The position numbers and the translations under genes were made by a program. DNA of 64,000 nucleotides. Origin: Segatella copri. GTDB taxonomy: Bacteria > Bacteroidota > Bacteroidia > Bacteroidales > Bacteroidaceae. The DNA lies in contig NZ_CATKVU010000006.1 in NCBI RefSeq assembly GCF_949820605.1, forward strand, positions 2,367,001 to 2,431,000, written 5' to 3'. The notes beneath the pieces are model-generated. The model was not told where the DNA came from. It saw only the letters and a program-made list of their open reading frames with translations, and did not search any database. Below, piece by piece: positions 12,061-63,026 of the stretch. The stretch's first letter is position 1, and every line of letters begins with the position of its first letter.

Positions 12061-12114
12061 GCAAAGGTAGCAATAAAACAGACATTTTACTTTGCTGTAT
12101 GTTACAAATACTTT
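12061..12114 (-). promoter_or_regulatory. Xylan operator/promoter A (double GH43)
   Basis: Read on the minus strand: AAAGTATTTGTAAC, 7 nt, AAAGTA, 18 nt, TACCTTTGC. This is one of seven sites with identical spacing. No TTTG -33 box is present at the normal position; the second AAAGTA half-site replaces it, as expected of an activator-dependent promoter. Confidence 0.8.
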
Positions 12115-12143
12115 AGCCAAACAACCATAATGTAAGAAAAAAA

Positions 12144-12176
12144 CGGTGCATTTCAAAAGAAACACACCGTTTTTAC
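12144..12176. terminator. Terminator hairpin upstream of operator A
   Basis: The imperfect stem CGGTGCATTTC/GAAACACACCG has T/A runs on both sides and can work in either direction. It insulates the xylan genes from the upstream DUF5723 operon. Confidence 0.6.
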
Positions 12177-12200
12177 ATCTTTACCTATAAGTTTTGCCCG

Positions 12201-12238
12201 AAATAAACGAGGGTACTTCTTGTCGAAACACCCTCGTT
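12201..12238 (-). terminator. Terminator of the DUF5723 gene
   Basis: The stem AACGAGGGT/ACCCTCGTT (12206-12214 and 12230-12238) is followed on the minus strand by TTATTTC, 75 bp after the stop codon. Confidence 0.6.
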
Positions 12239-12312
12239 AACAGGATTTTGCATGAATTCTTGTTTAAAGAACACGGCTGCAAAGGTAGGAGTTGGTTCAG
12301 GGCGTATGGGAG

Positions 12313-13725
12313 TTACCAGGTAACACTCATACCCAATGCGATGCTGGCATTGGAACTGAGAGGAATAAACTCTTTGCTGGTCTTGCCCAAGATGTGATCC
12401 ATACCGATGAAGAAGTTGTAACCCTTTGGATGGATATTCAGAACATAACCCATACTTGTAGCAAAACTGCTGACAGCAAAGTTGATACCACCATCCAACC
12501 ACTTCAATGGTTTCCAGTTGGCACTGAGTCTACCCTCGCTCCAGGTATAATCACCATTGATGTGGGTGCTGCTCAGCAAACCGAAGGACAACTTGTCGTA
12601 TGCTGGCAAACCGTACTCTGCGCCAAAGTTGAGCGTAGCAGCCAGAGCGGTAGTACGACTACCCTGGTCGCCCAAATCCTTCAGGTTGATGAAGTCGGTA
12701 ATCTGGTCGCCATAGTCATCCATCTTGTCATCGATGGTAGAACCGCTGTTTTCTCTTACCGCAGTATCATGGAAGCCATTGAACTCGAAGCTCTCAGCTC
12801 TGTTCACAGCCTTCATATTGTTGCTCCAGTTGATGAAGCCCAAATCGAGAACAGAAGCACTCAGGGTCAGGTTATCGTTCAACTTATAGACACCACCGAG
12901 GTCGAGCGCCATACCGAAACCGCCCAATCCTGCTCCATCAACATCTACATCATCTATCTTTTCGTACTCCCCCTTCTCCGGGTTGTTATATTTATCTCTT
13001 GAAGTCTTATAAGTAAAGCCCTTCATAGAAACCTGGGCATTCGCCTTGCCGGAAACAATCCACTTGTCTGTACCAGAGAGGTCAGCACGCAGGTTTTCCA
13101 GACGAACATCACCGTCAGCCACACCGAAGAGGAACTTCAATTTAGCACCGATGCGGAGTTTCTTGTTAATCTGATGAGAGTGACCCAATGCCAATTCAGC
13201 ATAAGAGCGAGCCATCATGCTCACATCACCAATCTCATAATTCTGGTTACCCGTGTTCTTGGCAAATTCAAACAACTCATAAGGCAGGGAAGCACCGAAA
13301 GATGCCTTGGCCTTCACCTCGATGGTATTATAACCGCCAAAGCCCTTGAAACCGGCAGAAAGTATGGAGATGCCCACATCACCCTGTATGCGGTTGTTGC
13401 TCTTGCTGAAGCCTTTCAGCGCCTCATCGGCAGAGATATAAGGATTCATGAAGGAAGTCATCTTCTTGGCACCCGCCTCCTGTCCGTACATCGGATTGTT
13501 CAGTACAATATCCTGGTAGCCGAAGTTGCCCTGCAGGTTGACATTTATATTACCCAAAGCAGGGATGGTGATATAGTTCTGCTTGTTCTCAAAAGCCGGG
13601 TTCATATCGTGACGGAACTTGTAGTCGTCAGTAAAGTAAGCGGAATTGAGCGTCTGAGCCATTGCGGTGCCACCCATCATGAGCAGAGAGGCAACCAAGA
13701 CATGCTTATATATTTTATTCATCAT
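12313..13725 (-). CDS. DUF5723-type outer-membrane beta-barrel protein
   Basis: 470 residues with the signal peptide MMNKIYKHVLVASLLMMGGTAMAQ and a long series of alternating strands ending in an aromatic residue (SNASIALGMSVTW), the usual outer-membrane insertion signal. The opening LNSAYFTDDYKFRHDMNPAF and the strand pattern fit the DUF5723 family of Bacteroidota, related in fold to PorV/FadL-like barrels. No function is established for the family that I can state. It is the second gene of a two-gene operon with the lipoprotein 48 bp upstream, which suggests an envelope complex. It shows no link to xylan genes in motif or promoter. Confidence 0.72.
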   Translation of the reverse strand: MMNKIYKHVLVASLLMMGGTAMAQTLNSAYFTDDYKFRHDMNPAFENKQNYITIPALGNINVNLQGNFGYQDIVLNNPMYGQEAGAKKMTSFMNPYISADEALKGFSKSNNRIQGDVGISILSAGFKGFGGYNTIEVKAKASFGASLPYELFEFAKNTGNQNYEIGDVSMMARSYAELALGHSHQINKKLRIGAKLKFLFGVADGDVRLENLRADLSGTDKWIVSGKANAQVSMKGFTYKTSRDKYNNPEKGEYEKIDDVDVDGAGLGGFGMALDLGGVYKLNDNLTLSASVLDLGFINWSNNMKAVNRAESFEFNGFHDTAVRENSGSTIDDKMDDYGDQITDFINLKDLGDQGSRTTALAATLNFGAEYGLPAYDKLSFGLLSSTHINGDYTWSEGRLSANWKPLKWLDGGINFAVSSFATSMGYVLNIHPKGYNFFIGMDHILGKTSKEFIPLSSNASIALGMSVTW

Positions 13726-13773
13726 TTTCTTTGTCTTTTATGTGTGTTATTATTCTGTTACTACTCTCTGTCA

Positions 13774-20544: not shown

Positions 20545-23151
20545 TTAATATTCAATAGAAACATCCAGTTTCTTCAAATCCTTATCAGCCGAACTGCTGC
20601 CGTAATAAACCTCATACTTTCCTGCCTTGGCACGGACGGTATTGGTTGCAGCATCGAAGAGTTCGAAGTTTCTGCTATCCAGCGTAATGACAGCCTCAGC
20701 AGTCTTTCCTGCCTTCACCTCCACTCTCTCGAAAGCCTTCAAGCTCTTCAATGGTCCTTCGGTATCGGCAGGATCCTTCACATATACCTGCACAATCTCG
20801 GTTCCATCTTTCTTTCCTACATTGCTTACCGGTACCTTCAGCGTTATCTTCTCACCCTTCTTCAGGATAGAGTTGGAAAGTGTAGCATCGCCAATACGGA
20901 AAGAAGTGTAGCTTAAACCATAACCGAATGGGAAGAGCGCATCGTTCATATAACGATAGGTTCTGCCCTTCATGCTGTAATCCTTGAAATCAGGCAACTG
21001 CTCTGAATTCTTATAGAACGTAATAGGCAACTTGCCGGCAGGATTGTACTCTCCGAAGAGTACACGAGCCACAGCCTCACCACCTTCCTGACCAGGATAC
21101 CAGGCCTGGAGAATGGCATCGCAACTCTCTGTCTCTGGAGTCAAGGCGATAGCCGAACCCGAACAGTTGACAAAGACAACCTTCTTGCCCGCCTCCTTCA
21201 AAGCCTTCAGGAAATTGCGCTGAACCTTAGGCAATTCGATGTTGGTGCGGTCACCACCCTTGAAGCCAGAAATCTCGATAGGCATTTCCTCACCTTCCAA
21301 CTGTGGAGAGATGCCACCTACGAAGACTACAGTCTCGCAATCCTTCAACTGCTTGAGCGAAGCCTGATAGTCGATAGGATTCTCATGACCGATATTGATC
21401 TTCATATCCGCATTATAGGTTGGCATTTCCGCATATCGTATTTCTATCTGATACTCCTTGCCTTTCACGCCCTCAAACTCGATGCGGGATTCTGCTGTGC
21501 GCCAATCGCTCTTCTCTGACTTTTTCTCACCATTCAGATAAACCTCATAATGACCGCAGGCAGCCACATCGAGCAATACCTTGGCGTTCTGCTTAGGACG
21601 GAATACGGTTTCATACTTGGCAGAAAAGCCCGTCAACTTCACATTGGGTGCAAACGAATGCTGACCATAGGTAGTTACCTGCACAGGATTCTTTTCCTGG
21701 GTGATGGTAACAGGCTTACCATTCATTTCACGATTGTTCCAGAAAGTGCCCTTAAAGCCCATCTTGCCATCCATGCTGCACTGGTCGAAGTAAGAATCCA
21801 ATGTCTGGTCGTTCACCAGGTCGCACCCTTTAAAGGTGACGACCTGTTTTTTCTTCAAACGACTCTTGATACCATCCAGGATGGTAATTGTCTGTCGTGG
21901 AGTACCATTATAGTTTCCCCACATCATCGGTTCGTTATCCACATTTGGTCCGATGAAAGCAATCTTCTTTACCTTTTTATCGAGAGGCAATACCTCATTC
22001 TTGTTTTGGAGCAGCGTCATGGTCTGCAGAGCCATATCGAGCGAGAGCTGGCGATGCGCCTTGCTGCAAAGCACAGATACAGGAATCTTCGACCATGATA
22101 CTATCTTGTTGTCATCCATCTCACCCAAGTCGAAACGACCTTCGAGCAGACGAATCACATGCTTATCAACTTCTTCTTCAGTCAAGGCACCATACTTCAC
22201 AGCCTCAGGCACCGATTTATATATATAATTAAATCCACATTCTACATCGGTTCCAGCCAATACACCCTTAGCTGCTGCATTTCTGGCATTGCTCGAAACC
22301 TTATGATTCTCCCAGAAATCAGTAACAGCACCACAGTCGGAAACTACCAGGTACTTGAATCCCCACTCATTCCTGAGAATCTGCTGCAAAAGGCGGGTGT
22401 TGCCGCAGCATGGTTCATCATCCCAACGCTGATAGGCACACATCACCTCACGCACCTTTGCATCCTGCACCAGTGATTTGAAGGCAGGCATATAAGTTTC
22501 CCAAAGGTCGCGCGGTGTAACATCGGTAATATTGTCTGTATGGCGAGCCCATTCTGGTCCGCTATGAATTGCATAGTGCTTGGCACAAGCCCAGAGTTTG
22601 CGGTATTTCGTATCTTCAGGTCCCTGCAATCCGCGCACCACGGCACATCCCATCCTACTGGTAAGATAAGGATCCTCGCCATAGGTTTCCTGTCCACGTC
22701 CCCAGCGAGGATCACGGAAGATATTCACGTTTGGAGTCCAGACAGAGAGGGCATGGAAACGGGTTACATCTCCTCCCTTCTGCTGCAGTTCATTCCATTT
22801 GGCACGCATCTCATCAGATGTTGCATCAAAGACTCTATACACCATTCTGTCGTTAAACGAAGCTGCCATTCCGATAGGTTCCGGAAAGACGGTTACATCT
22901 CCCATGTTCGCCACACCATGCAGCGCCTCGCTCCACCACTGGAATCTCTTGATTCCCAATCGCGGAATAGCCGGCGAATCATCCAGCATCAGAGAAGCTT
23001 TCTCTTCCAAAGTGAGACGACCACATAAATCTACCGCTCTCTCATGAGCCGAGAGAGCAGGATTCTGATAAGGCAACTGCTGAGCTGAGGCATTGCCGGA
23101 AGACATAGTTATCACAAACATCAAAGCTGCGTATATAACATTCTTGTTCAT
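20545..23151 (-). CDS. GH3 beta-xylosidase
   Basis: 868 residues with a signal peptide ending near ASAQ. It hydrolyses terminal beta-1,4-xylose from xylo-oligosaccharides, probably in the periplasm. Domains in order: GH3 N-terminal barrel (about 40-330) with nucleophile Asp272 in VVSDCGAV and substrate motifs RDPRWGRGQETYGEDP and KHYAIHSGPE; a C-terminal sandwich split by a PA14-like insertion (about 460-600); and a fibronectin III-like end (about 770-868). The WWSEALHGVA and RDPRWGRGQETYGEDP pattern is that of plant-type beta-xylosidases, also known from Prevotella Xyl3 enzymes. It has its own shared operator (23198-23251). The downstream TlpA-like gene may be in the same transcript. Confidence 0.9.
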   Translation of the reverse strand: MNKNVIYAALMFVITMSSGNASAQQLPYQNPALSAHERAVDLCGRLTLEEKASLMLDDSPAIPRLGIKRFQWWSEALHGVANMGDVTVFPEPIGMAASFNDRMVYRVFDATSDEMRAKWNELQQKGGDVTRFHALSVWTPNVNIFRDPRWGRGQETYGEDPYLTSRMGCAVVRGLQGPEDTKYRKLWACAKHYAIHSGPEWARHTDNITDVTPRDLWETYMPAFKSLVQDAKVREVMCAYQRWDDEPCCGNTRLLQQILRNEWGFKYLVVSDCGAVTDFWENHKVSSNARNAAAKGVLAGTDVECGFNYIYKSVPEAVKYGALTEEEVDKHVIRLLEGRFDLGEMDDNKIVSWSKIPVSVLCSKAHRQLSLDMALQTMTLLQNKNEVLPLDKKVKKIAFIGPNVDNEPMMWGNYNGTPRQTITILDGIKSRLKKKQVVTFKGCDLVNDQTLDSYFDQCSMDGKMGFKGTFWNNREMNGKPVTITQEKNPVQVTTYGQHSFAPNVKLTGFSAKYETVFRPKQNAKVLLDVAACGHYEVYLNGEKKSEKSDWRTAESRIEFEGVKGKEYQIEIRYAEMPTYNADMKINIGHENPIDYQASLKQLKDCETVVFVGGISPQLEGEEMPIEISGFKGGDRTNIELPKVQRNFLKALKEAGKKVVFVNCSGSAIALTPETESCDAILQAWYPGQEGGEAVARVLFGEYNPAGKLPITFYKNSEQLPDFKDYSMKGRTYRYMNDALFPFGYGLSYTSFRIGDATLSNSILKKGEKITLKVPVSNVGKKDGTEIVQVYVKDPADTEGPLKSLKAFERVEVKAGKTAEAVITLDSRNFELFDAATNTVRAKAGKYEVYYGSSSADKDLKKLDVSIEY

Positions 23152-23197: not shown

Positions 23198-23251
23198 GCA
23201 AAGATAAACAAAAAAGCAGAATACTACTTTATCACAAGTATCAAATACTTT
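23198..23251 (-). promoter_or_regulatory. Xylan operator/promoter B (GH3)
   Basis: Minus strand: AAAGTATTTGATAC, 7 nt, AAAGTA, 18 nt, TATCTTTGC. Same spacing as the other six sites. Confidence 0.82.
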
Positions 23252-25769: not shown

Positions 25770-25917
25770 ACTTCTGTTTATTTTATTAGAGGGTTTATGA
25801 TTTGTACAGTTCCAAATATATAAGATAGTATTTCGACTGCAAAAGACTGCATCAAATCCATAGAAAGACAGGGATAATACGATTGGAACGCTTCTCGATT
25901 GTCAAATCATCATGAAT

Positions 25918-27408: not shown

Positions 27409-27428
27409 AACTTTCTTTATTGATTGCA

Positions 27429-28133
27429 CTACTTCACGTGAATAGACAGGTTTCTGACAGGCTTGCCCTGTCCGTCGATGAATCGGACACAGAAGTCGCT
27501 CATACCAGGACCATTGATTACCGCACCACGAAGGATATTCCTACCTTTCTTCAAGGTAAGCTTCTTAGAAACCACATCATCGCGAACCATTCTTCGGTCG
27601 CCTTCGAGCATCACCGCCTCCTCACCATTGAGCCACCACATGGACGCACCATTCGAGCCAACAGACAAGCGGACGTCTTTCATCTCCTCAGGGCAATCGA
27701 TAATGGTAACCGCCCAGAACAAGACACCATACTTGGGTTTCTTAAACGAAGTGGCGAAACGGAAGAGCTTCACATTAAACAGTTTACTGTCCAGCGCATG
27801 CCATTTCAGTTTTTCCTTGCCCACCTTCACGACGGCTCCATCCTTAGGAACTGTTTCCATCTGTTTAGGGAAATACTGCGTATGGAATATCTCCTTCAGA
27901 TAAGAATCAGTAAAAACGACATTGCTCTTGACCGGCATAGAGATGGGCTCCAGGAGCAACCATCTCTGAATAAAGCCAGCCGCATTAGGCATGACAGCCT
28001 GCTTCCCGACTGGTCCGAAATAAGGATTGATGTCTGCAGGTAAATTCCTATTTTGAGCATCCGCAGAGGAATGCCCAAAAAGGAATACACATAAACAAAA
28101 CAATCTAACTATTTTATTGAAAATGTTGTACAT
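27429..28133 (-). CDS. Secreted protein of unknown function in the xylan operon
   Basis: 234 residues with a signal peptide ending at about SSADAQ. I do not recognise a named family. Visible features: an N-terminal segment GFIQRWLLLEPI, and a C-terminal jelly-roll-like half with SVGSNGASMWWLNGEEAV and VSKKLTLKKGRNILRGAVIN. These resemble accessory beta-sandwich domains that display a small-ligand or sugar site in larger glycosidases and esterases. No catalytic triad or dyad is obvious. It lies 13 bp after the GH43-GH8 gene and just before a GH43, so a role in xylan binding or as an esterase/lyase accessory is likely but inferred. Confidence 0.7.
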   Translation of the reverse strand: MYNIFNKIVRLFCLCVFLFGHSSADAQNRNLPADINPYFGPVGKQAVMPNAAGFIQRWLLLEPISMPVKSNVVFTDSYLKEIFHTQYFPKQMETVPKDGAVVKVGKEKLKWHALDSKLFNVKLFRFATSFKKPKYGVLFWAVTIIDCPEEMKDVRLSVGSNGASMWWLNGEEAVMLEGDRRMVRDDVVSKKLTLKKGRNILRGAVINGPGMSDFCVRFIDGQGKPVRNLSIHVK

Positions 28134-28146
28134 AGACTATTCATTA

Positions 28147-50181: not shown

Positions 50182-50222
50182 AATAATCAAATTATTAGAA
50201 TGACACTTATCTATCAAGAATA

Positions 50223-51284: not shown

Positions 51285-51292
51285 TTTAAATA

Positions 51293-53110
51293 TTAGTCGT
51301 TATTTTTTACTTCCCAGCCCTTATTCTGCTGCAAGTTGCTCCACTTCAACATTTCGCTCTGTGGTATAGGACCGTAATACATGTAATCTTTATAGTTGCG
51401 ATCCTCAACCTTCATGACTTTGTATAATGGGGCACCAGCCTCTGAAGTGATTTCTATACCACGCACAGCCTCATTTAGAGGAGCTTTCCAACGGCGAAGG
51501 TCGCTAAAGCGCTTATTTTCAAAACAAAGTTCCAAACGACGCTCGTTGCGAATCAACTCACGCATTTTCTCTTTGCTACCAGCGCACTCATCCAAGTATG
51601 GATCCTCGCCAAACTCGCCAACCCCGGCACGCTCACGGATTGCCTTGATTACATCGTAAGCTGAGTAGTTGTGAGATCCCTTACCCTGTGGTCCCCAAGC
51701 CTCGTTGGCAGCCTCAGCGTAATCGAGGAATATCTCAGTATAGCGAATATACACAGGATAATGATACTGAGCATTCTTTGCATTAGGGTCAGGATTACAA
51801 TCCTCACGCAACAGCTTTTTCATGTAATAGCCTGTACGAGTAGAATTGGAAATCTTATTCAAACCATCATTGTTATTAGCCGTCGTAATGTCTGTATGAA
51901 TGGTCTTTCCCTTATAAGTACTACCATCATGAATGATATAAAGGTCAAGACGAGGATCTCGATTGCTGTAAGGATTCAACTTATCATACTCAGAACGAGC
52001 ATCGGTGATAGGATAACCATTTACAGCAGGGAATGCATCGACCAGATTCTGAGTTGGGTTGATTCTACCCTTACCATAAAGAGACGGAGGGAAATTATCA
52101 GCCTCTTGGTTCAGACCAAAATCATAATCTTCAGAACCATTGGTACGACTGCCACGCCAAAGAATTTCAGCAGGGCAAGCACCTGAGCCAAGCGCATCTA
52201 TTTCCTTGGTTTGCATAAACCAATTATTACCTGTAGCCGACAAACCATTCACACCATTGATACGATCAAGAACGGTAGCTGCATCGTCAGCAGCCTTAGC
52301 ATAATCCACGTTTGTACCTTCAGAGAAAGCAGGACTAGCTGCAAGCAAAGATACCTGTGAGCGAATAGCCTCAGCGATACGACCGCTGATACGACCACGC
52401 ATAATGGAACCAAACACACGGTTGTAGTCTCCTGCGGTCTTTACACCGATTTCCTTATACTTGGCAGGAACAGCGTTATCATCAGTCAAATCATTGTAAT
52501 CAAGAGGGAGAAGCTTGGCAGCCTCGTCCAAATCGCTATAGATTTGATCCAAGCACTCTTGGAATGTATTACGTGGCTTGTTGAAATCATCAGTAGAAGT
52601 CTCTGGTTCTGTCAAATTAGGAACACCAAGCAGTTTGCCATCGGCTGTCCATCCACCATGATTCATCAAAAGATAATACAAGTTGAGAGCTCTCAAAGCA
52701 TAAGCTTCACCTTTACGACTATCACAATACATCTTACGGGCATTCTCGTCCTTTGCCCAGTTTACCTTATCTACCTCCTGAAGGAAGATATTGAGATATT
52801 GGATACTAGCACGACCATTTGTCCATTTAGACATAGGATCGCTATTAGCAGTCCAAGAACCTGTAGCCATCTTGAGATAGCCATTTGTCAAGTCATTGCT
52901 TACAGCGTCATCTGTAGCAACATCAGTAACACTCTTCGTATTGTAAGGAAGCATGGCATAACCATATCCCAATAGTCCCTGAGCGTATGTTGGCTCATTG
53001 TAAATCTCATCCAAGCCACGGTTGTTTTCATCTGCAGGCTCGAAGAGATCTGAGCAAGAAGCCAAAGTAAGCGACATTGCTGCTAATATAAATATATTTT
53101 TTACTTTCAT
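51293..53110 (-). CDS. xusD: SusD-like lipoprotein (second of the xus operon)
   Basis: 605 residues, signal MKVKNIFILAAMSLTLASC (Cys19). SusD helices and the closing motif RNERRLELCFENKRFSDLRRWKAPLNEAVRGI followed by WSNLQQNKGWEVKN. It forms a transporter with the SusC-like protein encoded 22 bp upstream. Two SusD proteins in one xylan operon (XusB and XusD) are characteristic of this locus type; they probably prefer different oligosaccharide lengths or decorations. Confidence 0.92.
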   Translation of the reverse strand: MKVKNIFILAAMSLTLASCSDLFEPADENNRGLDEIYNEPTYAQGLLGYGYAMLPYNTKSVTDVATDDAVSNDLTNGYLKMATGSWTANSDPMSKWTNGRASIQYLNIFLQEVDKVNWAKDENARKMYCDSRKGEAYALRALNLYYLLMNHGGWTADGKLLGVPNLTEPETSTDDFNKPRNTFQECLDQIYSDLDEAAKLLPLDYNDLTDDNAVPAKYKEIGVKTAGDYNRVFGSIMRGRISGRIAEAIRSQVSLLAASPAFSEGTNVDYAKAADDAATVLDRINGVNGLSATGNNWFMQTKEIDALGSGACPAEILWRGSRTNGSEDYDFGLNQEADNFPPSLYGKGRINPTQNLVDAFPAVNGYPITDARSEYDKLNPYSNRDPRLDLYIIHDGSTYKGKTIHTDITTANNNDGLNKISNSTRTGYYMKKLLREDCNPDPNAKNAQYHYPVYIRYTEIFLDYAEAANEAWGPQGKGSHNYSAYDVIKAIRERAGVGEFGEDPYLDECAGSKEKMRELIRNERRLELCFENKRFSDLRRWKAPLNEAVRGIEITSEAGAPLYKVMKVEDRNYKDYMYYGPIPQSEMLKWSNLQQNKGWEVKNND

Positions 53111-53132
53111 TTCTTTCTACATTTTAAAATGA

Positions 53133-56015
53133 TTAGAATGTTGCCTTCACACCTATATTATAATAGCGTGTCTGAGGCGCAGACCCAACGTTCATCTCTA
53201 AGACTTCGCGCTCTCCTGAAATGGTAAGCAAGTTAGCTCCGCTTACGTATGCCGACAACCCCTTAAGCCATGTCTTTTGGAACAAAGTACTAGGCAAGTC
53301 GTAAGTTATCTGGACCTTAGCCAAGCGGAATGCATCTGTCTTGTACATCCAGAAGTCTGATGTCTGGAAGTTGTTGTTACCATCAAGAGATGTCAAACGA
53401 GGATAGGTTGCAGTCTCTTTTGTTTCCTCAGTCCATCGGTTACGAACTACAGCAGAATATTTGCTATCGCCCTTTACCCACCAATAAGAATTATTCTTGA
53501 CACCCCAAGCACCGAAGTTACCGGTACCAAGAGCGAAGAAGGTAAAGTTCTTCCACTTAGCTGTAAGATTGACACCAAGCGTGAATGGTGCTCCGTACCA
53601 ACCACCCTTACCCAAGAAGACTTGGTCGTATTGGTCAATTTTATTATCACCATTTACATCCACATACTTGATGTCACCAGGTTTAACTGTTCCACCAAAA
53701 TAGCTTTGGTCTGGAGAATTTTTGATTTCCTCCTCGCTTTGGAAGAGACCTGCGCTCTTGTAGCCCCAAATGCCATCAAGTGCCTTTCCTTGTCTGTTCT
53801 GATACTGCTCTACGTTGTTCTCATCTCGTTTGGTAGCCTTGGTTGTATAGTAAGTACCAGTCACACCAAGTGAGAGATCCACATCACCTACCTTCTTATT
53901 GAAGTTGGCTGCGAAATCAAATCCTACTCTACGATTATTGTTGTAATTCAGTACAGGCATAAACGAAGCCGCTGGATAACCAGTATTCAAATGAGATGGA
54001 TAGAATGTTGGCGAAGAGATAAGATAACCCTCCATCGAATTGATGAAGAAACTTGCATCCAATGTCACCAATTTTTGCCACAAGGATGTCTTGAAATTCA
54101 GAGACAACTCTTTGCGCTTGATAAAATCAAGGTCTTTGTTCTCACCTCTTTTTGAATAGGTGTATTTATCGCTAGCTCCATCATACCATCCATAGCCGTA
54201 ATCAGAAGTCCAAATACTCTGATAGAGATAGTAGCGTTTGTCACCATTTGCTATATCAATATCCTCATTGATAATACTACCTGATACACTAATCAGCATG
54301 TCATCTACCACCTTGGAATTCTTCAAGAAAGCCTCATTCTTGAGTCTCCAACCCAAAGAAAGTGATGGTGAGAGAGCCTCGCGATGACCTGGAGCCAACT
54401 GGGCAGAGTGGATGGCAGCTAATCCAAAATCTGCATAATATTTCTGGTCATAATTGTAAGAAGCATCGAATGCAAGATTGGCACTAGAGTTCTTATGATA
54501 CTGTCCAGACTTCGACTGCTGGAAGCCAGAAGCTATCAACATTGCCGACAGATTGTGAACCTTGTTGAAAGTATTGTTGTAGTTGAACTGACCAGAGAAA
54601 AACATGGTCTGGTTATCTGTACTTCCACTGATGTTCTGGTTGCCAGACTTTTTATCCTCACCTTCCTTCTTCAATGCGACAATCATATCCTTGCCATCAA
54701 TGTTAGCCCATGTTGGGATATAAACAGCATAGCTATTATCGAAAGAAGTATTATAAGAGGTAGCATAGTCGACTGCGAAATGAGTCTCGAAAGACAAGCC
54801 CTTCAACACCTTGTGCAAGTTGATATTGATACCCGTATCAAACTGGAATTGACGACTAGTAAATTTACTACTTCCTGCAGAATAGATGTCAGCAAAAACA
54901 TTGGAAGAGTTTGCCTGAGTACCAGCAAGAAAGTATTTGCCATCTACCAACTTCGCAACGCTCATCAAGTCCCAAGCAGCCTTAGCATTAGGGGCTATCA
55001 TATCTGTGGAGATAAGAGGAGCTGCATTCTGTGGAAAATTAGGACGCCAAGTAGCAGCAGCTTCCCAGTAATTACCCTTTGCAGAATGAGAATCATAGAA
55101 GGTTGCACTGGAGTTGACCCAAGCCTTAATATCATCAGTAATGTCTATATCCACATTACCACGAACGCTGAAGCGCTGGGTATTATTATTCTTAGCCTCA
55201 CCAAACTTGAAATAATCGCCCTGGCGATAATAGTTGATATTGCTATAGAAGTGAGCTCGCTTACCACCACCGCTGATTTCTGCAGTAGCCTCATAACGGC
55301 TGTTCATCTTTCTGAGATAATCAGAAGAATAGAAATCGAGATTAGGATAACGATAAGGGTTCAAACCTGCTCCATGATTATAGATATCCTCAGAAGAATA
55401 AAGCTCAGACAGACCATCATTACGACGAGCCTCGTTATAGAGAGTCATATACTCTGCACTGCTAAGATACTCAGGATAAGACTTTGCTACATTCAAACCT
55501 GCATTAGCCTGCACCTCGACCTTCAAGCCGTCATTATGACCACGCTTGGTGGTTATGACTACAGCACCCTTGGCAGCCTTGCTACCATAGAGCACCACAG
55601 CCTGCGCACCCTTGAGGAAAGAAATCTGTGCAATCTCACTTGGTTGAACGTTGTTAGCTTCACGAGGCACACCATCTACCAAGACGAGATAACCAGCGTT
55701 ATCGGCATCCATACCCCAGAGAGAATTGCCATTCCAACCACCTACATAACCTTGCATATTGTCGAGGCTATAAGTATGGTAGTTCTTCTTCATCAAGTTC
55801 TCTACATCGACTACAGACACACCGCCCAAGATATCATCCTTGGCTACCTTTCGGTAAGCCACCTGAACCATCTCCTTGTCGGCACTGGCTGTGTCGGATT
55901 CGCTTGTCTGTGCAGTCTTGGCATTGGCACCAAGAGGAGCCAAAGCCACGAGACTTGCTACAAAAAGCTTATAATTATATGATTTGAATCTTGAATTCAT
56001 ACTATCATTATTCAT
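53133..56015 (-). CDS. xusC: SusC-like TonB-dependent transporter lacking the N-terminal regulatory domain
   Basis: 960 residues, shorter than the other two SusC proteins (1033 and 1048). After the signal (ending LAPLGANAK) there is no carboxypeptidase-like domain: a 50-residue segment (TSESDTASADKEMVQVAYRK) leads directly into the plug (VVDVENLMKKN, YLVLVDGVPREANN, KAAKGAVVITTKRG). The barrel is complete and ends YNIGVKATF. Start at 56015 or 56000. It imports xylo-oligosaccharides with XusD. The missing domain is also a feature of some second SusC proteins in Bacteroidota xylan loci. Confidence 0.9.
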   Translation of the reverse strand: MNNDSMNSRFKSYNYKLFVASLVALAPLGANAKTAQTSESDTASADKEMVQVAYRKVAKDDILGGVSVVDVENLMKKNYHTYSLDNMQGYVGGWNGNSLWGMDADNAGYLVLVDGVPREANNVQPSEIAQISFLKGAQAVVLYGSKAAKGAVVITTKRGHNDGLKVEVQANAGLNVAKSYPEYLSSAEYMTLYNEARRNDGLSELYSSEDIYNHGAGLNPYRYPNLDFYSSDYLRKMNSRYEATAEISGGGKRAHFYSNINYYRQGDYFKFGEAKNNNTQRFSVRGNVDIDITDDIKAWVNSSATFYDSHSAKGNYWEAAATWRPNFPQNAAPLISTDMIAPNAKAAWDLMSVAKLVDGKYFLAGTQANSSNVFADIYSAGSSKFTSRQFQFDTGININLHKVLKGLSFETHFAVDYATSYNTSFDNSYAVYIPTWANIDGKDMIVALKKEGEDKKSGNQNISGSTDNQTMFFSGQFNYNNTFNKVHNLSAMLIASGFQQSKSGQYHKNSSANLAFDASYNYDQKYYADFGLAAIHSAQLAPGHREALSPSLSLGWRLKNEAFLKNSKVVDDMLISVSGSIINEDIDIANGDKRYYLYQSIWTSDYGYGWYDGASDKYTYSKRGENKDLDFIKRKELSLNFKTSLWQKLVTLDASFFINSMEGYLISSPTFYPSHLNTGYPAASFMPVLNYNNNRRVGFDFAANFNKKVGDVDLSLGVTGTYYTTKATKRDENNVEQYQNRQGKALDGIWGYKSAGLFQSEEEIKNSPDQSYFGGTVKPGDIKYVDVNGDNKIDQYDQVFLGKGGWYGAPFTLGVNLTAKWKNFTFFALGTGNFGAWGVKNNSYWWVKGDSKYSAVVRNRWTEETKETATYPRLTSLDGNNNFQTSDFWMYKTDAFRLAKVQITYDLPSTLFQKTWLKGLSAYVSGANLLTISGEREVLEMNVGSAPQTRYYNIGVKATF

Positions 56016-56044
56016 TTAGTATTACTAATTTATAATTTTAAACC

Positions 56045-58009
56045 TTACCAGCCTGGATTTTGTCTAAACTCTGAACTGATCTGAGTCTCCTTGATTGGCA
56101 ATGGGAACCAATAGTGCTTGGCATCGAAATTACGAGTCAATATCAACTTTCTACGATAATTGGCAACCTGAGCGTCCTTAGGATCATTCTTCGTATAGAA
56201 GTCTGCACTTTCCACACGGTCAAACTCCTGTGAGAATTTTTGATTATATGGTGCCTCTGTCAGAAGCAACCAACGCTGCAAGTCACAAAAACGGAATCCT
56301 TCGAAAGAAAGTTCTACCTCACGCTCACGACGGACCTCATCCATGAACTTATGGTTGTCTGCAACAAATTCTGGAGCAACATGACCTGCACCACAACGGT
56401 CGCGAAGTGTATTAATTGCATCTTCTGCGGTCTTGCCAAAGTTTGAAGACTTGCCAGAAGCACCACCGAATGCAGCACAAGCCTCTGCATACATCAAGTA
56501 TATGTCTGCAAGACGCATATATGGCAAATAGCAGTGTAAAGCTGAACCCCAATCGTAATCTTTATCCACTTCATTACAAGTATGAGGCACCAACTTCTGA
56601 ATGAAATAACCCGTACGGCTTGCATTTGCGACAGGGCGCATATTACCACCCGTATATAATTGGCAATACTGTAAATCTGCATACTGACCAGGTGTTCCGT
56701 TCAAATACTTAAAACCATCGAAGACGATATCGTGGTAGAAACGGGGATCACGATTTTTGAAAGGATGGGTAGGGTCGAAGCCAGACTTTGGATTGAGTAC
56801 ATACTTACCATTCTCAACCAAATAGATTGGCTCTCCGTTAGCCATTCCATAAGCCTCTACAAGGTTGGCCGTAGGTTGGTGAATGACATTATCATGAGCA
56901 ACTACTTTCTGTACCTTAGGGCCAAAGACCTTAGAGGTATTCCAGTTAGAGCCATTAAAATCAGCAGATGGACCACGGAAGATTGCTTCAACCGTTCCTG
57001 GCATTTTCCAGTTCTGCTTCTTGGTATAGAATATATCAGAAAAACAGCTATTGGCATCAGCAGATTTCTCATGATTGTAGATGTCTGAGTACTTAAACTC
57101 TGCCAATGCATATTGTGTCTGACCAGCTTCCACAAGAGAGAGCAGTTCACCAAAAGCCTCAGCTGCCTTCTTAGCATATTCTTGATCATAATCATAAGTC
57201 TTGCCATTCTTGCTGGCACCAGTCTGCGCACCATTCTTCATCAAAGGACTAGCAGCCCAAAGATAGGTTTTACCAAGATAACCAAGAGCCATGATCTTAT
57301 TGATGCGAAGATCATTCTTACCTTGTGTGGCTAAACCTGCAGAAGTCTTATCCCAATTAATAGGCAACAAATCGGCAGCCTTGCGGAAATCTGCTGCCGC
57401 TTTATCAGCGCATTCCTGAAAAGAAAGGCGTGGCAATCTCTGCTCGGCATTGTCACCGAGAAAAGTATCCACATAAGGCATACCACCAAAATACTGCATC
57501 ATTTCCTCATGCCACCATGCACGGAAGAAATAGAGCTGACCCTCTATCAGTTTTTTCTCTTCAGCACTTCCAGTCACAAACTTGTCGATATTCTGTAAAC
57601 CGAGATTACATTTTCTGATGCAATACCACGCATGGTTCCAAATACCGTGGTCGAACTTATTTGTGGAAGTAGAAGAACCATCACGCTTTAGCCAGTTACC
57701 AGTAGATTCCCATGCACGGAAGTTACCTAAATCAACCTGATGGGTCATTCTATTATCAGCCTCAGGATTGAAGATTTCATCATCACCCCAGTTCCATGAA
57801 GGACAATAGTTACATTTCTCTTTATCAGGGATACAGTTGTATATTTCCTCAACGAAACCTTGGAAATTACGGAAATTGGCAAAGGCATCGTCTGCAGAAA
57901 CTGTTGAGTCTGGCTCCTTGTCCAAGTAGTCTTGACAAGAACTCAGCGAAGTACCGAGAGCCAGCGAGACGCATCCCGTCAACAATAATGTCTTTATCTT
58001 ATTTTTCAT
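56045..58009 (-). CDS. xusB: SusD-like lipoprotein (first of the xus operon)
   Basis: 654 residues from ATG 58009, 20 bp after the XusA stop; lipobox SLSSC. SusD features: QDYLDKEPDSTVSADDAFANFRNFQGFVEEIYN, four TPR-like helical pairs, and the C-terminal EVELSFEGFRFCDLQRWLLL and SSEFRQNPGW. It binds xylan-derived oligosaccharides above the XusA pore. The frame upstream of 58009 overlaps xusA and is rejected. Confidence 0.92.
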   Translation of the reverse strand: MKNKIKTLLLTGCVSLALGTSLSSCQDYLDKEPDSTVSADDAFANFRNFQGFVEEIYNCIPDKEKCNYCPSWNWGDDEIFNPEADNRMTHQVDLGNFRAWESTGNWLKRDGSSTSTNKFDHGIWNHAWYCIRKCNLGLQNIDKFVTGSAEEKKLIEGQLYFFRAWWHEEMMQYFGGMPYVDTFLGDNAEQRLPRLSFQECADKAAADFRKAADLLPINWDKTSAGLATQGKNDLRINKIMALGYLGKTYLWAASPLMKNGAQTGASKNGKTYDYDQEYAKKAAEAFGELLSLVEAGQTQYALAEFKYSDIYNHEKSADANSCFSDIFYTKKQNWKMPGTVEAIFRGPSADFNGSNWNTSKVFGPKVQKVVAHDNVIHQPTANLVEAYGMANGEPIYLVENGKYVLNPKSGFDPTHPFKNRDPRFYHDIVFDGFKYLNGTPGQYADLQYCQLYTGGNMRPVANASRTGYFIQKLVPHTCNEVDKDYDWGSALHCYLPYMRLADIYLMYAEACAAFGGASGKSSNFGKTAEDAINTLRDRCGAGHVAPEFVADNHKFMDEVRREREVELSFEGFRFCDLQRWLLLTEAPYNQKFSQEFDRVESADFYTKNDPKDAQVANYRRKLILTRNFDAKHYWFPLPIKETQISSEFRQNPGW

Positions 58010-58028
58010 CTGAATATTTTTTTTATAA

Positions 58029-61000
58029 TTACAATGAGAATTTAACACCTAAGTTGAAGCGGCGAACCGTAGGGTATGCTCCCAACCAGCCACCACCACC
58101 GAGGTTTGCCTCACGGTCATCAGGCATACGAGTCCAGAGCCAGAGGTTATTACCATTCAAGTAAACCTTGAGGTAGTTTATGCCTAATGCCTTAATCCAG
58201 CCCTTGGTCCAGGTATAAGCAATCTCGACATTCTTCAAACGAATGTAAGAGCCATCATACATAAATTGTGTACCATAGGTGTAACTTGAAGCTGTGGCAC
58301 CCCAACGAGGGAGGATACATTCTGCATTGCCTTGATTCTTATTCCACCAAGTACCAGTATCATAAACATTATCAAGCATATTACCAAAGCTTGTCAATGA
58401 TACGTCACGGGTCACATCAGTTACTCCATAGAACTGAGCGAAAGCAGAGAACCCCTTCCATTCGAAACCAATAGTAGCATTATAGGTGTTCTGCGGACTA
58501 CTGCTATAACCTACAGGAGCCGAGTCCCTGCTATCAACAACACCATCACCATTGAAATCAACAATGTAATAGTCACCAACCAAACGGTGATTGTCATTGG
58601 AGTCGTGCGCCGGAGAACCTATCAAATCATCAATATTATTGATAAAGCCCTTATCTATATAAGAGTGATACTGATTCATGGCAAATCCTGCCTCCTTTTG
58701 ATAATTTGGAGTAAAGATGGCATCATCCTTCAAAATCACCTTATTCTTGGCATGGGTCATATTGAAATTACCCCAGAGTCGCAAGCCATTAGCAAACACC
58801 TTATTAAGTTTCAATTCCCACTCGTAACCACTGGTACGAACCTTACCTTTATTAATAGTAGGTGCTGTCGTTCCGAAATAAGAAGGAACAGAACGGTTGG
58901 CGCCGAAAATCAAGATGTCATTACGACGATCACAGAAGAAATCCAAAGAACCAGTAATCAAGCCTCCCAAGAAACCATAATCAATACCGAAGTTGGTTTT
59001 CTTAACTGTTTCCCATTTCACATTATCATTTCCAAGAGTGTTCTGTCGATACCATGTATAGATGCTCTCTGTATGGTCGAGATCCATCGTAGTCTTGCCG
59101 CCATACGCCCACTGACTCATATACAACCAGCGACGACTAGAATCAAATGGGTCACCTATGTTGTCATCACCAATCTCACCATAGGAAGCACGGAACTTCA
59201 ACATATCGATGATGTGCTTGTCACGAAGAGACTTCATGAAGTTTTCCTCAGTAATGGTCCATCCGATAGCACCTGAATTGAAGAAGGCAAAACGATTGTC
59301 CTTGCTGAACTTTTCTGATCCGTTATAGGCGCCATTATACTCGATGTTATAACGACCTGCATAGCTATAGGTAGCACGGAATGCCCAGTCCTCACGGTAA
59401 GTTGGCATCACACTACCACGTGCATTCTCCTGACGTGAGAACAAGCCCATGGCTGATACGTCATGCTGTCCAAACTTGCGAGCCCAGTTGAGCTGCAACT
59501 GATAGTAGAGGTTGCGAACAGTCTGGTTATTATCTACAGAACCACCTTCCGTTGACCAGTTCACACCTTGCTGCCAATCAAACTTATTATTTCCTTCAAG
59601 TTCTTTACCATAAGTAACCTGACCTGTTTCAGGATCAATATACTTAGTCTGGGCTTCATTATTCAAGTCATTGATACCTCGTCCTGTCTCAACAAAAACA
59701 TTATCCCAAGAGATAGTACCACGGAAATTCAAGCCTTTGGTTATGAAATCCAATTTTTGCTCAAGGGTAAAGTCTGTATTGATACGAGTGGTTGTAGCCT
59801 GTGCTGTACCACCGATAGCAAGATTCTGTGCAGAGTTACTTACATTGGAAGCAGCTGGATAGAATCCCCATGTGCCGTCAGAATATTGTGGCAAGAACAC
59901 ATCTGGGGCGATGTTATAAGCACCAGCCCACTGCTGACCAATCTGCCACTCACTATTGCTCATGTTACTCCAAGGAGCTTTTCTTACGCCATTGCTACCA
60001 GCCACATTTACCTTCAAAGTAGTGCTACTTGTGATGGCAAAGTCCAAGTTACTACGAACATTGATACGATTGTATCCATAGCCAGAGTTGTAATTACGAC
60101 CATTGTCATACTCACGGAAGAGGTCACCCTCATGCACGAAATCAGCAGAAGCGAAGTACTTAACGAATTTTGTACCACCACTCACGTTCACGTTGGCATT
60201 ATAGGACACAGCAGACTTTTTGAAAAGTGCATCCTGCCAATCCACATTGGCATAACGTTCACGCTGCTCCTGAGTAGTCTGGTTTCGATAGTTGTCTATA
60301 AAAGACTGAGGACGAAGATATGAAACACCTTCAGGATAAATGCCCAGTTCACGCTCTACCACTTGGTTGCGAAGCATCAACGCATCATAAGAGTCGTACT
60401 TATTAGGCAACTTAGAAGGAGCTTTCAACGTAGCATTGAAACCAACGTCAATCTTAGCCTTGCCTTCCTGACCACGCTTGGTGGTAACCAAGATGACACC
60501 ATTGGCTCCCTTCACACCATAGACTGCAGTAGCAGAAGCATCCTTCAGTACAGAGATGCTCTCCACAGAAGAGATGTCCACGCTGCTCAGAGGACGTTCA
60601 ATACCATCAACGAGAACGAGAGGGTCGGAATTATTCCATGAACTAGAACCACGGATGATAATCTGAGGTTCCTCCTCACCAGGCATACCATTGCCTTGGA
60701 TTGTAACAACTCCTGGGAGGTTACCTGTCAAGGCTGAACCAACGTCGCTGACACCAGCTGCACGCTCCAAAACCTCACCAGTGGTCTGGGTGATGGAACC
60801 TACGACAGATGCCTTCTTCTGCTGACCATAACCAACGACTACAACTTCGCCGATGGCATTGTCGTCTTCAAGAGTAAGTTTGAACTCTCTCTTCTTACCG
60901 ATCTTTACTTCCTTGGTCTTCATACCTACGTATGTAAATACGAGGGTAGAATTCTCTGAAGGAACACTGATACTGAAATTACCATCTAAGTCGGTGACCG

Positions 61001-61175
61001 CACCGACGCTGGCATTACCTTTTAGTTTTACAGTGGCACCTATCAGAGGCTCACCTGTACCGTCAACAAGATTACCCTTGACCTGGATATTCTGTGCCTG
61101 AGCATTCAGGCTGCAGAAAGCTCCCACCAAGCATAAGGCTGCTGTCCGTTTCATTGTTAACACTTGTTCAATCAT
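58029..61175 (-). CDS. xusA: SusC-like TonB-dependent transporter, first gene of the xus operon
   Basis: 1048 residues. Signal MKRTAALCLVGAFCSLNAQAQ (this ATG at 61154 is an alternative start), carboxypeptidase-like domain IQVKGNLVDGTGEPLIGATV, VVVVGYGQQKKAS TonB box region, plug with IIIRGSSSWNNSDPLVLVDG and VTTKRGQEGKAK, and a complete barrel ending RFNLGVKFSL. It imports xylo-oligosaccharides across the outer membrane. It heads a six-gene operon with the order of the P. bryantii xusA-xusE-xyn10C cluster. Shared operator E lies at 61242-61295. Confidence 0.94.
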   Translation of the reverse strand: MIEQVLTMKRTAALCLVGAFCSLNAQAQNIQVKGNLVDGTGEPLIGATVKLKGNASVGAVTDLDGNFSISVPSENSTLVFTYVGMKTKEVKIGKKREFKLTLEDDNAIGEVVVVGYGQQKKASVVGSITQTTGEVLERAAGVSDVGSALTGNLPGVVTIQGNGMPGEEEPQIIIRGSSSWNNSDPLVLVDGIERPLSSVDISSVESISVLKDASATAVYGVKGANGVILVTTKRGQEGKAKIDVGFNATLKAPSKLPNKYDSYDALMLRNQVVERELGIYPEGVSYLRPQSFIDNYRNQTTQEQRERYANVDWQDALFKKSAVSYNANVNVSGGTKFVKYFASADFVHEGDLFREYDNGRNYNSGYGYNRINVRSNLDFAITSSTTLKVNVAGSNGVRKAPWSNMSNSEWQIGQQWAGAYNIAPDVFLPQYSDGTWGFYPAASNVSNSAQNLAIGGTAQATTTRINTDFTLEQKLDFITKGLNFRGTISWDNVFVETGRGINDLNNEAQTKYIDPETGQVTYGKELEGNNKFDWQQGVNWSTEGGSVDNNQTVRNLYYQLQLNWARKFGQHDVSAMGLFSRQENARGSVMPTYREDWAFRATYSYAGRYNIEYNGAYNGSEKFSKDNRFAFFNSGAIGWTITEENFMKSLRDKHIIDMLKFRASYGEIGDDNIGDPFDSSRRWLYMSQWAYGGKTTMDLDHTESIYTWYRQNTLGNDNVKWETVKKTNFGIDYGFLGGLITGSLDFFCDRRNDILIFGANRSVPSYFGTTAPTINKGKVRTSGYEWELKLNKVFANGLRLWGNFNMTHAKNKVILKDDAIFTPNYQKEAGFAMNQYHSYIDKGFINNIDDLIGSPAHDSNDNHRLVGDYYIVDFNGDGVVDSRDSAPVGYSSSPQNTYNATIGFEWKGFSAFAQFYGVTDVTRDVSLTSFGNMLDNVYDTGTWWNKNQGNAECILPRWGATASSYTYGTQFMYDGSYIRLKNVEIAYTWTKGWIKALGINYLKVYLNGNNLWLWTRMPDDREANLGGGGWLGAYPTVRRFNLGVKFSL

Positions 61176-61241
61176 GTTCTATTCATTTTTGATTTATGCT
61201 TTAAAAATTTAGGCGTGCACTAAAACTGTTTATTCACGGCG

Positions 61242-61295
61242 GCAAAGGTATGGATTTCTTTCGAAACATACTTTGCGTGGTGTAACAGAAAGTTT
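61242..61295 (-). promoter_or_regulatory. Xylan operator/promoter E (xusA)
   Basis: Minus strand: AAACTTTCTGTTAC, 7 nt, AAAGTA, 18 nt, TACCTTTGC. It ends 1 bp before the GH5 stop codon, so the operator fills the intergenic space exactly. Confidence 0.82.
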
Positions 61296-61296
61296 A

Positions 61297-62697
61297 TCAT
61301 TTTAGAAAAACCTTGCGAGAACGTATTTTTCCATTACTTAACAGTTGTTTTATTATATAAACACCAGCAGTTGGCTTTTCTACCTCTTTTCCTTCTATAT
61401 TATAATATAAGGTGGAAACCACGTCTGCCTGGGTTTCTAATTGTTTAATTCCTGTTGTATTTTGTTTCAAATACCACTCTTTATACCAGTTCATACAGGC
61501 ATAGCCGCAACACTCTTCGAACAATCCGTGTTTCTTGGCATTCTGGAAACCAGGAATCACCTTGCCCGATTTAAGATATTCATCAATATCGTAATATTCC
61601 TGCGGATGGGTAAGGGTCATACCGATATTGCCAAAGTGGTCGTGAACTGCCTTCCATGCCAATCCCCATTTCGAGGTAGATGCTGTTGCCCAGCTTCCCA
61701 GGTTAGGTTGTGTCCACTGTCCCCACTCATTGTAGTGACCTTTATTTTTCTGGTCAGGATCTTCCGGACTCCAGTCTATCTCCGTTACCATGATAGGTTT
61801 CGTTTCCACCATCGGCACCTGACTTTTAAAGTTGCGGATGAAAGTATCGTGATTGCAATTCTTATCGGTCATATTTCCATACCATCCGGAATAAACATGT
61901 ACTGCATAAGAGAAGTTGTCCTCGCTATCGGTGATAGGATACTTGGCGTAATTCTGATATTGGCTCTGATAACCGGCACCCGGAACCCAGATGATTCCCT
62001 TGAAGCCCTGCTCGCGAATCTCGTTAATCACCGGCTGGAAGTAATCATGCAGTGCTTTATCCGAATTAGAGCCATCACCCAGATGAACCCTCACCGGCTC
62101 GTTGGCTAGTTCGATAGAGATAATACCCGAATTCTGCTGAATATACTCATCGGCAGCAAATGCTTTCCAGATACCCTTCAGATAGCGGTTGTACTTATCG
62201 TCTACTCTGATATCACCAGGACAGACACCCGGTGGACGTACGATGACGTAAAGTCCATGTGCTATAGCATCCTTGATGAGAGGAATATAGAGTTTCTGGA
62301 GATAGCGACGGTAGCGCGCCATGTTGAATGCCGAGATATCAGCCTCGTTTTCTGCTTTCTTTGCCGGATCGTTGGTCCAGCATGGATCCATGTGCAATCG
62401 GAACACGGTACAATAAGCACCCTGCTTCTTGTCGGTAATAGCCGAGAACAGCTTAGAGAAATATTCCAAGCAAGGCTTAATGTCGGCATCAGAATAATCA
62501 GCCTTCCACTGTTGCCATCTCCAACCGTTGAAGTAGCGGTTTGGCGTATCCATTACGCCATGCAAGACAACAGTCTTACCATTGGCATCCACCAGGTTCC
62601 TACCCTGCACACGGAGTGCCGGCAGATTATCTGCAGCCAGTCCCTCCATTGACAGCATAGCCATAGCGAGTGATATTAACAATTTCTTTCTGTTCAT
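61297..62697 (-). CDS. GH5 endo-xylanase-type enzyme with C-terminal sorting-like tail
   Basis: 466 residues from ATG 62697 (signal MNRKKLLISLAMAMLSMEGLAA). GH5 barrel: acid/base Glu200 in IELANEP, nucleophile Glu306 in VTEIDWSPE. The context and pattern (VVLHGVMDTPNRYFNGWRW, CTVFRLHMDPCW) suggest subfamily 21, known from Bacteroidota xylan loci as a xylanase. The last 40 residues (YYNIEGKEVEKPTAGVYIIKQ ... RSRKVFLK) look like a C-terminal secretion or anchoring tail. It has its own operator F and an unusually long leader of about 270 nt. Confidence 0.87.
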   Translation of the reverse strand: MNRKKLLISLAMAMLSMEGLAADNLPALRVQGRNLVDANGKTVVLHGVMDTPNRYFNGWRWQQWKADYSDADIKPCLEYFSKLFSAITDKKQGAYCTVFRLHMDPCWTNDPAKKAENEADISAFNMARYRRYLQKLYIPLIKDAIAHGLYVIVRPPGVCPGDIRVDDKYNRYLKGIWKAFAADEYIQQNSGIISIELANEPVRVHLGDGSNSDKALHDYFQPVINEIREQGFKGIIWVPGAGYQSQYQNYAKYPITDSEDNFSYAVHVYSGWYGNMTDKNCNHDTFIRNFKSQVPMVETKPIMVTEIDWSPEDPDQKNKGHYNEWGQWTQPNLGSWATASTSKWGLAWKAVHDHFGNIGMTLTHPQEYYDIDEYLKSGKVIPGFQNAKKHGLFEECCGYACMNWYKEWYLKQNTTGIKQLETQADVVSTLYYNIEGKEVEKPTAGVYIIKQLLSNGKIRSRKVFLK

Positions 62698-62803
62698 TGT
62701 TACGATTATTTTTAGATTTATCATTTATTGTCAGTCACCTTATTATATTATGAAGGATTGCCAGGTTCCAGTTTACAGAAAAGGATGCTGGTCTTTTAAA
62801 ATA

Positions 62804-62832
62804 GAATGGCGCGTAATCACTACGCACCATTC
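62804..62832 (-). promoter_or_regulatory. Stable hairpin in the GH5 leader
   Basis: GAATGG-GCGTA stem (11 bp, one C-A mismatch) with a 5-nt loop, followed on the minus strand by TATTTTAAAAG. It lies between operator F and the GH5 start and could act as an attenuator or stabilise the mRNA. The rest of the 270-nt leader shows no ORF of note. Confidence 0.45.
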
Positions 62833-62972
62833 CCGAAAACCAATTAATCATGATTCTATATAAAAACCATAATATCAAAATCTTTTAGAAATTCTAAACC
62901 TATTCTACAACCTATTATGTATAAACCTAACTAACCTAAATATTCTAAATATATACAACTTAAAAAACCGAT

Positions 62973-63026
62973 GCAAAGATACTCCTAATCTATCATATAT
63001 ACTTTATAATAAGTAACCAATAGTTT
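62973..63026 (-). promoter_or_regulatory. Xylan operator/promoter F (GH5)
   Basis: Minus strand: AAACTATTGGTTAC, 7 nt, AAAGTA, 18 nt, TATCTTTGC. Confidence 0.8.

Follow-up and report, generated by a model that had tools for sequence, protein, structure and literature searches.

Seven promoters in a xylan gene cluster of Segatella copri share one direct-repeat element, set at a fixed distance from the -7 box. They lie in a 64,000-nucleotide stretch (assembly GCF_949820605.1, contig NZ_CATKVU010000006.1, positions 2,367,001 to 2,431,000 of the forward strand; hereafter the window). Comparison of these sequences with those of related genomes makes it probable that the elements are the operator and core promoter of genes controlled by the hybrid two-component system (HTCS) regulator whose gene starts at 63176, with the downstream subunit of the regulator in the slot of the -33 box.

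Seven probable operator-promoter sites in the window

The full pattern comprises the distal 14-mer half-site AAAGTATTTGTTAC, seven unspecified bases, the proximal half-site AAAGTA, 18 further unspecified bases and the box TAnnTTTGC, giving 27 specified bases. In coordinate order, with mismatches to these bases and scores against a matrix built from the seven sites in brackets, the sites are the operator-promoters of a GH43-GH43 gene at 12061..12114 (1 mismatch, 45.4 bits; distal half-site 12101-12114, proximal AAAGTA 12088-12093, -7 box 12061-12069), of a GH3 gene at 23198..23251 (1 mismatch, 45.9 bits), of a susC gene and the genes after it at 35808..35861 (2 mismatches, 42.6 bits), of a divergent CE6-CE1 esterase gene at 35952..36005 (5 mismatches, 38.2 bits), of a gene for a 352-amino-acid protein at 45946..45999 (1 mismatch, 46.0 bits), of an xusA-type susC gene and the genes after it at 61242..61295 (3 mismatches, 43.2 bits), and of a GH5 gene at 62973..63026, in the region divergent from the HTCS gene (2 mismatches, 43.8 bits). 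The esterase site is on the plus strand and the other six are on the minus strand.

The half-site starts are 21 bp apart at every site, and all seven carry the -7 box TAnnTTTG, the primary-sigma box of the Bacteroidetes. The distal 14-mer is exact in two sites and the proximal AAAGTA in four. From the -7 box to the start codon there are 35-108 nt at six sites and 248 nt at the GH5 gene. Chance can be rejected as the origin of the sites by a shuffle test and by the matrix scores: six of the seven match the full pattern at three or fewer mismatches while 100 dinucleotide shuffles of the window gave no match, and the sites score 38-46 bits against 18 bits for the next match in the 64 kb scanned. 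When each site is withheld from the matrix in turn, it still ranks 4th to 7th in the window; the esterase site, the weakest of the seven, then scores 28.3 bits and ranks 7. The coordinates, gaps and 21-bp spacing given in a preliminary description of this DNA are thus borne out, and so are the genes that it placed behind the sites (the double GH43, GH3, SusC, CE6-CE1, xusA and GH5 genes, the seventh encoding 352 amino acids without a Pfam domain); its statement that all seven fit the pattern is slightly generous, given one to five mismatches, five of them at 35952.

The next-best match in the window, at 18.0 bits, is a third repeat unit (AACCTATTTGGTAT; 46007..46020, minus strand) that stands in register 21 bp upstream of the 45946 site, an arrangement also found in the closed genome of a relative, G045 (3,325,514 bases, one contig). 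Repeat units beyond the two half-sites, again spaced by 21 bp, occur in the window (at 45967) and in relatives.

Seven similar promoters could also be copies of one promoter spread by recent duplication. Flank similarity does exist in some promoters (window 23162-23357 and G045 2573-2769 agree at 83%), but the spacers differ between sites where the pattern bases agree, and by eye the flanks and spacers of most of the seven are as different as those of promoters with no relationship. Across four orthologous promoter pairs, 95 of 108 pattern bases are identical and 40 of 108 other bases. With spacers diverged and pattern bases conserved, recent duplication is not favoured, and we regard it as extremely improbable.

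A fixed distance to the -7 box and no -33 box

Bacteroidetes promoters have been described by the consensus of a -7 TAnnTTTG and a -33 TTTG, as cited in PMC7366714. Among 46 TAnnTTTGC promoters collected from the window and from stretches of G045, mismatches to the core (the 27 bp that hold both half-sites without the promoter box, used as a matrix and pattern of its own) are bimodal, numbering 1-5 in 12 promoters and 9-18 in the other 34. TTG stands in the -33 slot of none of the 12 motif promoters and of 17 of the 34 others (Fisher p = 0.0015, which is optimistic in that several of the 12 are orthologues between the window and G045); for TTTG the counts are 0 of 12 and 7 of 34. This test applied a 250-nt limit, outside which the GH5 site falls, so the lack of a TTTG -33 box claimed earlier holds for six sites by the slot test and for the GH5 site by eye. 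In the other promoters TTG peaks at columns 23-24 (16 of 34), which lie within the proximal AAAGTA (columns 22-27); therefore the proximal half-site sits on the -33 slot, as the preliminary description had proposed.

The distance from core to box is rigid. In the neighbourhoods of HTCS genes from 20 relatives, none of which was used to build the motif, 14 of 44 core matches have a TAnnTTTG 8-30 bp downstream, and all 14 have it at exactly 18 bp; in the loci of the window, G045, G001 and S. copri iA622, training sites included, 22 of 41 core matches have a box, again all 22 at 18 bp. Core matches lacking a box (19 in the training-set loci, 30 in the held-out ones) are about as numerous as in the reversed control (23 and 30).

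Rigid spacing to the -7 box and absence of a -33 box would also be expected if the repeats were simply part of the core promoter for a specialised sigma factor, working without a separate activator. The -7 box, however, is the ordinary primary-sigma box, the additional upstream units at 21-bp steps fit activator binding better, and some core sites lie at HTCS start codons with no box at 18 bp. We judge this explanation very unlikely. The fixed 18-bp distance and the missing -33 box suggest that the HTCS activates by taking over the role of the -33 contact, and activation resembling that at class II promoters is the most economical model we can offer.

Specificity in relatives

Pattern searches covered the whole genomes of G045 and G001 and samples of the genus. 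With up to three mismatches allowed, G045 has seven matches, all in its xylan region, which spans the start of the record, and the reversed control has none. With a loosened pattern there are ten sites and none in the control; a GH115 gene follows the one at 1,960,431, and the other nine are in the xylan region. The core alone gives nine matches, all in the xylan region (control 2). Each of the ten loosened-pattern sites stands before a gene of xylan type or before an unannotated gene of the xylan cluster, and a general element in front of many unrelated genes is not what is found in this genome. At one of its sites, of the 35808 type, the susC-susD pair is gone and the site is retained (L028:6740-6793 and 7175-9688, compared with window 30782-35861); the next gene found is the GH43-GH8 gene, 381 nt away, a natural rewiring of the promoter.

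G001 has two full-pattern matches, and four by matrix in two stretches; of the genes behind them, three resemble SusC, xusA and GH5 genes at their N-termini and one is a GH43 gene by Pfam. A core-only search of this genome returned three matches, one of them (C2:76669) outside this contig, with one in the control.

Across 398 genomes of the genus there are 61 matches in 48 genomes and none in the control; none of the 59 genomes that represent other families in a sample of relatives has a match. Outside G045 and G001 the genus sites number 52, and the analysis covered the 33 with loci, which include sites of closely related genomes and so are not all independent. Twelve precede SusC-type genes, seven precede GH3, GH5, GH10, GH43 or alpha-L-arabinofuranosidase genes, four precede esterase genes and one precedes a gene with a weak carbohydrate-binding module (CBM) match under the Pfam cut-off (L096), so that 24 of 33 stand before SusC, GH, esterase or CBM genes. 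Five others precede proteins that have no Pfam match or are too short to scan (in L089 the open reading frame, ORF, is cut at 65 amino acids and went unscanned), one has no ORF (L084), and three precede other genes, for YbjQ at 384 nt, a histidine kinase and a Wzi-like protein.

Link to the adjacent HTCS gene

The proposed regulator is encoded at 63176..64000 (plus strand), an ORF left open by the end of the window, which holds its N-terminal 275 codons with the signal and the sensor propeller (PF07494, Reg_prop). This copy ends before the AraC-type DNA-binding domain; the G045 orthologue, 96% identical over the N-terminal stretch in the window, has propeller, HisKA, HATPase, receiver and AraC-type helix-turn-helix domains. 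The receiver of that orthologue (L026:14931-19037) has NHIP in place of S/CHIP, which Gao et al. 2024 (PMC11253607) describe as conserved in most HTCS receivers. In S. copri iA622 the orthologue (L024:10001-14097; 80% identity at the N-terminus) appears as two ORFs of 397 and 905 amino acids, either a real break or an assembly error.

That the HTCS at 63176 binds these sites, as the preliminary description inferred, is supported by where the sites occur and by the genomes that hold them. When the 20 held-out HTCS neighbourhoods are scanned with a matrix of 16 sites, 15 of them prove to hold one or more sites scoring 16 bits or higher, 20 sites in all; the reversed sequence and five Markov-randomised copies of every neighbourhood yield none. 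In 11 of the 20 neighbourhoods the divergent region next to the HTCS gene contains a site directed away from that gene, like the GH5 site of the window, and in L106 a second site follows the HTCS gene, as in G001. A match was present in 165 genomes, from which the neighbourhoods were selected, for the most part by highest score; five (G056, G031, G074, G049, G063) were chosen because motif matches were already known elsewhere in those genomes. A match to the HTCS DNA-binding domain at E < 1e-33 is present in 44 of 48 genomes with the motif and in 139 of 350 without it (Fisher p = 2e-12); this cut-off was set after two score groups had become visible, and the counts (44/48, and 183/398 overall) were tallied by hand from tables.

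The sites could instead be operators for a different HTCS or AraC-type protein of the same genome. A search of G045 with the DNA-binding domain of the HTCS gives 16 matches, of which nine fall in open frames of at least 948 amino acids, and DSM18205 is reported to have a second xylan polysaccharide utilization locus (PUL) with an HTCS of its own (PMC11784079). Against this, the nearest paralogue in G045 is 43% identical in the domain and the genome-wide search with the loosened pattern finds no match near it, nor did inspection by eye of the -7 boxes in 60 kb around it, and the motif adjoins orthologues of the 63176 HTCS in many genomes. A motif common to the second xylan PUL is rejected on the same ground, no such repeats being found around the paralogous HTCS. 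Control by another regulator is unlikely in our estimation.

Two variants of the arrangement occur among the neighbourhoods. In L104, L105 and L107, AAACTCTATGAGAC replaces AAAGTATTTGTTAC with all spacings kept, a subgroup that offers a chance to map the residues of the DNA-binding domain that set the sequence. In L109, L111, L113, L114 and L118 (HTCS starts at 9557, 8531, 8508, 9082 and 5273), and similarly in L116, the HTCS gene is preceded by a -7 box of its own, upstream of which stands TTTGG, and a copy of the operator core, for example AAAGTATTTGTAAC, lies between that box and the ATG. From this placement it is possible that the HTCS represses itself in those relatives; no such copy stands between box and ATG at the HTCS gene of the window.

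Proposed mechanism

In the model that we propose, a xylo-oligosaccharide would be sensed in the periplasm and the receiver domain of the HTCS would become phosphorylated, both steps being borrowed from the literature on other HTCSs, as is DNA binding itself. The AraC-type DNA-binding domains would then settle on the same face of the helix at the two directly repeated half-sites, which are 21 bp apart, the distal half-site being strong and the proximal AAAGTA partial. With the proximal half-site lying 18 bp before the -7 box, where a -33 TTG would otherwise stand, the bound downstream subunit would probably substitute for the -33 contact and recruit the primary sigma factor to TAnnTTTGC; lacking the activator, a promoter with a -7 box only should be weak. 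Both the binding of these sites by this particular HTCS and the replacement of the -33 contact by its subunit are steps that we infer.

Two well-known activators offer comparisons. AraC at araI1-I2 binds two direct half-sites 21 bp apart, of which the proximal one is weaker and overlaps the upstream promoter element. The proximal half-site described here likewise overlaps the upstream promoter element, as in class II activation by AraC, but covers the whole -33 slot, and conserved bases continue from it towards the -7 box. PhoB, a response regulator, binds direct repeats that replace the -35 box of its promoters at a fixed distance from the -10 box; it does so with an OmpR-type winged helix on 11-bp repeats, in contrast to the AraC-type domain and the 21-bp spacing here.

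Expression in S. copri DSM18205

For S. copri DSM18205 the PUL reported as most strongly induced by xylan is NQ544_13805-13865 (PMC11784079). The gene order of this genome fits that of G045, in which record genes 3, 4 and 5 are GH43, GH43 and GH95 genes (4 and 5 by alignment to genes of the window); counting from the GH43-HTCS-GH5 start in G045, the first and second SusC genes correspond to 13820 and 13830, in agreement with the tbdt names used in that paper. By this mapping, which we infer from gene order, the sites would precede 13820, 13850 and 13860, and a repeat array would precede 13805. In G045 this array lies between the HTCS and GH43 genes (L026:14790-14892, minus strand) and comprises three or more repeat units, one every 21 bp, ending at a distance from the -7 box that departs by 1 bp from the usual one. 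The sites and the 13805 array together would then cover the induced PUL, leaving the GH5 and NQ544_00015 sites as exceptions. The GH43 gene NQ544_00020 is reported as moderately up (PMC11784079).

Several observations weigh against control of all seven promoters by this HTCS. In DSM18205, GH5_21 is reported as constitutive and the GH43 gene NQ544_00015 as showing no significant induction (PMC11784079), and the G045 counterparts of both carry good sites. On a polysaccharide mixture NQ544_13820 rises 50- to 300-fold along with others and NQ544_13830 does not (PMC11784079), which does not fit the single operon in which we place the two. Such exceptions in expression count against a simple rule of one site, one response. 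In addition, no site reaches 16 bits in five of the 20 HTCS neighbourhoods, 9 of the 33 genus sites precede a gene that lacks a PUL-type domain or no gene at all, and the co-occurrence of domain and motif is confounded and inflated by shared ancestry. We regard the regulon of seven promoters proposed in the preliminary description as supported, with the reservation that the GH5 gene is reported as constitutive in DSM18205.

A variant compatible with the proposed mechanism is that the HTCS binds the sites and the working regulon is smaller than seven promoters, with the GH5 site, and possibly others, weakly used or overridden. The expression of GH5_21 and NQ544_00015 would be explained in this way, the HTCS gene itself is reported as constitutive (PMC11784079), and the 248-nt leader of the GH5 gene points in the same direction; but the GH5 site is retained with its spacing intact in G045, S. 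copri iA622 and G001. We take this variant seriously while leaning against it. Our literature search found no transcript-start data for Segatella.

Proposed target genes

Behind the first site lie GH43-GH43, GH95 and GH43 genes, assigned by their Pfam domains and probably forming one operon (4407..12025, minus strand), and behind the second the GH3 gene (20545..23151, minus; PF00933, PF01915). The 35808 site is followed by genes for SusC, SusD, GH43-GH8, a 234-amino-acid protein, GH43, a 284-amino-acid protein and GH31, also predicted to be one operon (23266..35699, minus), and the divergent site by the CE6-CE1 esterase gene (36057..37967, plus; PF03629, PF00756). The xusA-type SusC gene (58029..61175, minus; plug and CarboxypepD domains) is followed by genes for SusD, a second SusC-like protein, SusD, a DUF5627 protein and GH10 (47929..58048, minus; PF07980, PF07715, PF18620, PF00331), which by their spacing probably constitute one operon. 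The GH5 gene occupies 61297..62724 (minus; PF00150).

The remaining target gene (44819..45877, minus) encodes a secreted protein of 352 amino acids in which no Pfam domain is recognised; it has 639 homologues, and its C-terminal tail is conserved. Since an operator precedes its gene, it is likely a xylan-response protein. Its AlphaFold model is predicted to be beta-rich, at low confidence (predicted local distance difference test, pLDDT, score of 68), and the PDB fold matches listed were unusable, with template modelling (TM) scores below 0.25 on the query; the similarity to the xylan-binding module CBM15 (1gny; TM 0.42 on the target) can be taken as a hint only. Upstream of this gene, at 46274-47782, the window has an AAA ATPase gene with no operator site at its position, unlike G045, whose counterpart (L027:14402-15920) is a lipoprotein-like gene with an operator site of its own (3299402).

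Relation to known systems and significance

Operators of this type have precedents in Bacteroides. Ravcheev et al. 2013 (PMC3878776) predicted operators for 16 HTCSs of B. thetaiotaomicron as direct repeats averaging 21 bp apart, and proposed a dimer on one face of the DNA, two turns apart. The likeness lies in a pair of conserved direct half-sites spaced by about 21 bp, in their position before PUL genes that serve one glycan pathway, and in an HTCS gene at the same locus, here conserved with the motif (15 of 20 neighbourhoods); the differences lie in the regulators and sequences, and in the genus, Bacteroides there and Segatella here. The portion of that text available to us, which excludes the additional files and RegPrecise, mentions no xylan HTCS motif, no distance to a -7 box and no -33 element. 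SusR operators are also direct repeats before glycan genes in Bacteroidetes, with 67 or 77 bp between centres as compared with the 21 bp seen here (PMC3878776). Fragments of BT4124 and BT4663 comprising receiver and DNA-binding domain bind PUL promoters in vitro (Gao et al. 2024, PMC11253607). The XynR/xylan cluster of Prevotella bryantii is a further comparison, a xylan PUL of DSM18205 being described as exactly syntenic with one of strain B14 (PMC11784079). No operator for this HTCS appears in the parts consulted of PMC12125979, PMC10766802, PMC12596196, PMC4942465 and PMC8631079, and the literature search as a whole, which took in openly available texts but not subscription papers, RegPrecise or supplements, found no such motif, no Segatella HTCS operator and no fixed -7 distance combined with loss of the -33 box. 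What is new, then, is not the type of site, already predicted for Bacteroides, but the Segatella xylan motif, its rigid spacing and the missing -33 box.

For S. copri and its kin, which are common fibre degraders, the sites provide a concrete and testable operator and target list for the xylan HTCS. They also supply a plain rule, based on sequence, by which HTCS targets can be found even where annotation is lacking, as for the 352-amino-acid protein. More tentatively, and with the balance of our own judgement against it, HTCS promoters of the Bacteroidetes may form a general class that lacks a -33 box, with the downstream HTCS subunit filling that position at a constant spacing to the -7 box, and a half-site after the -7 box of the HTCS gene itself serving self-repression. 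If so, the targets and operators of HTCSs would be readable from sequence alone across the phylum.

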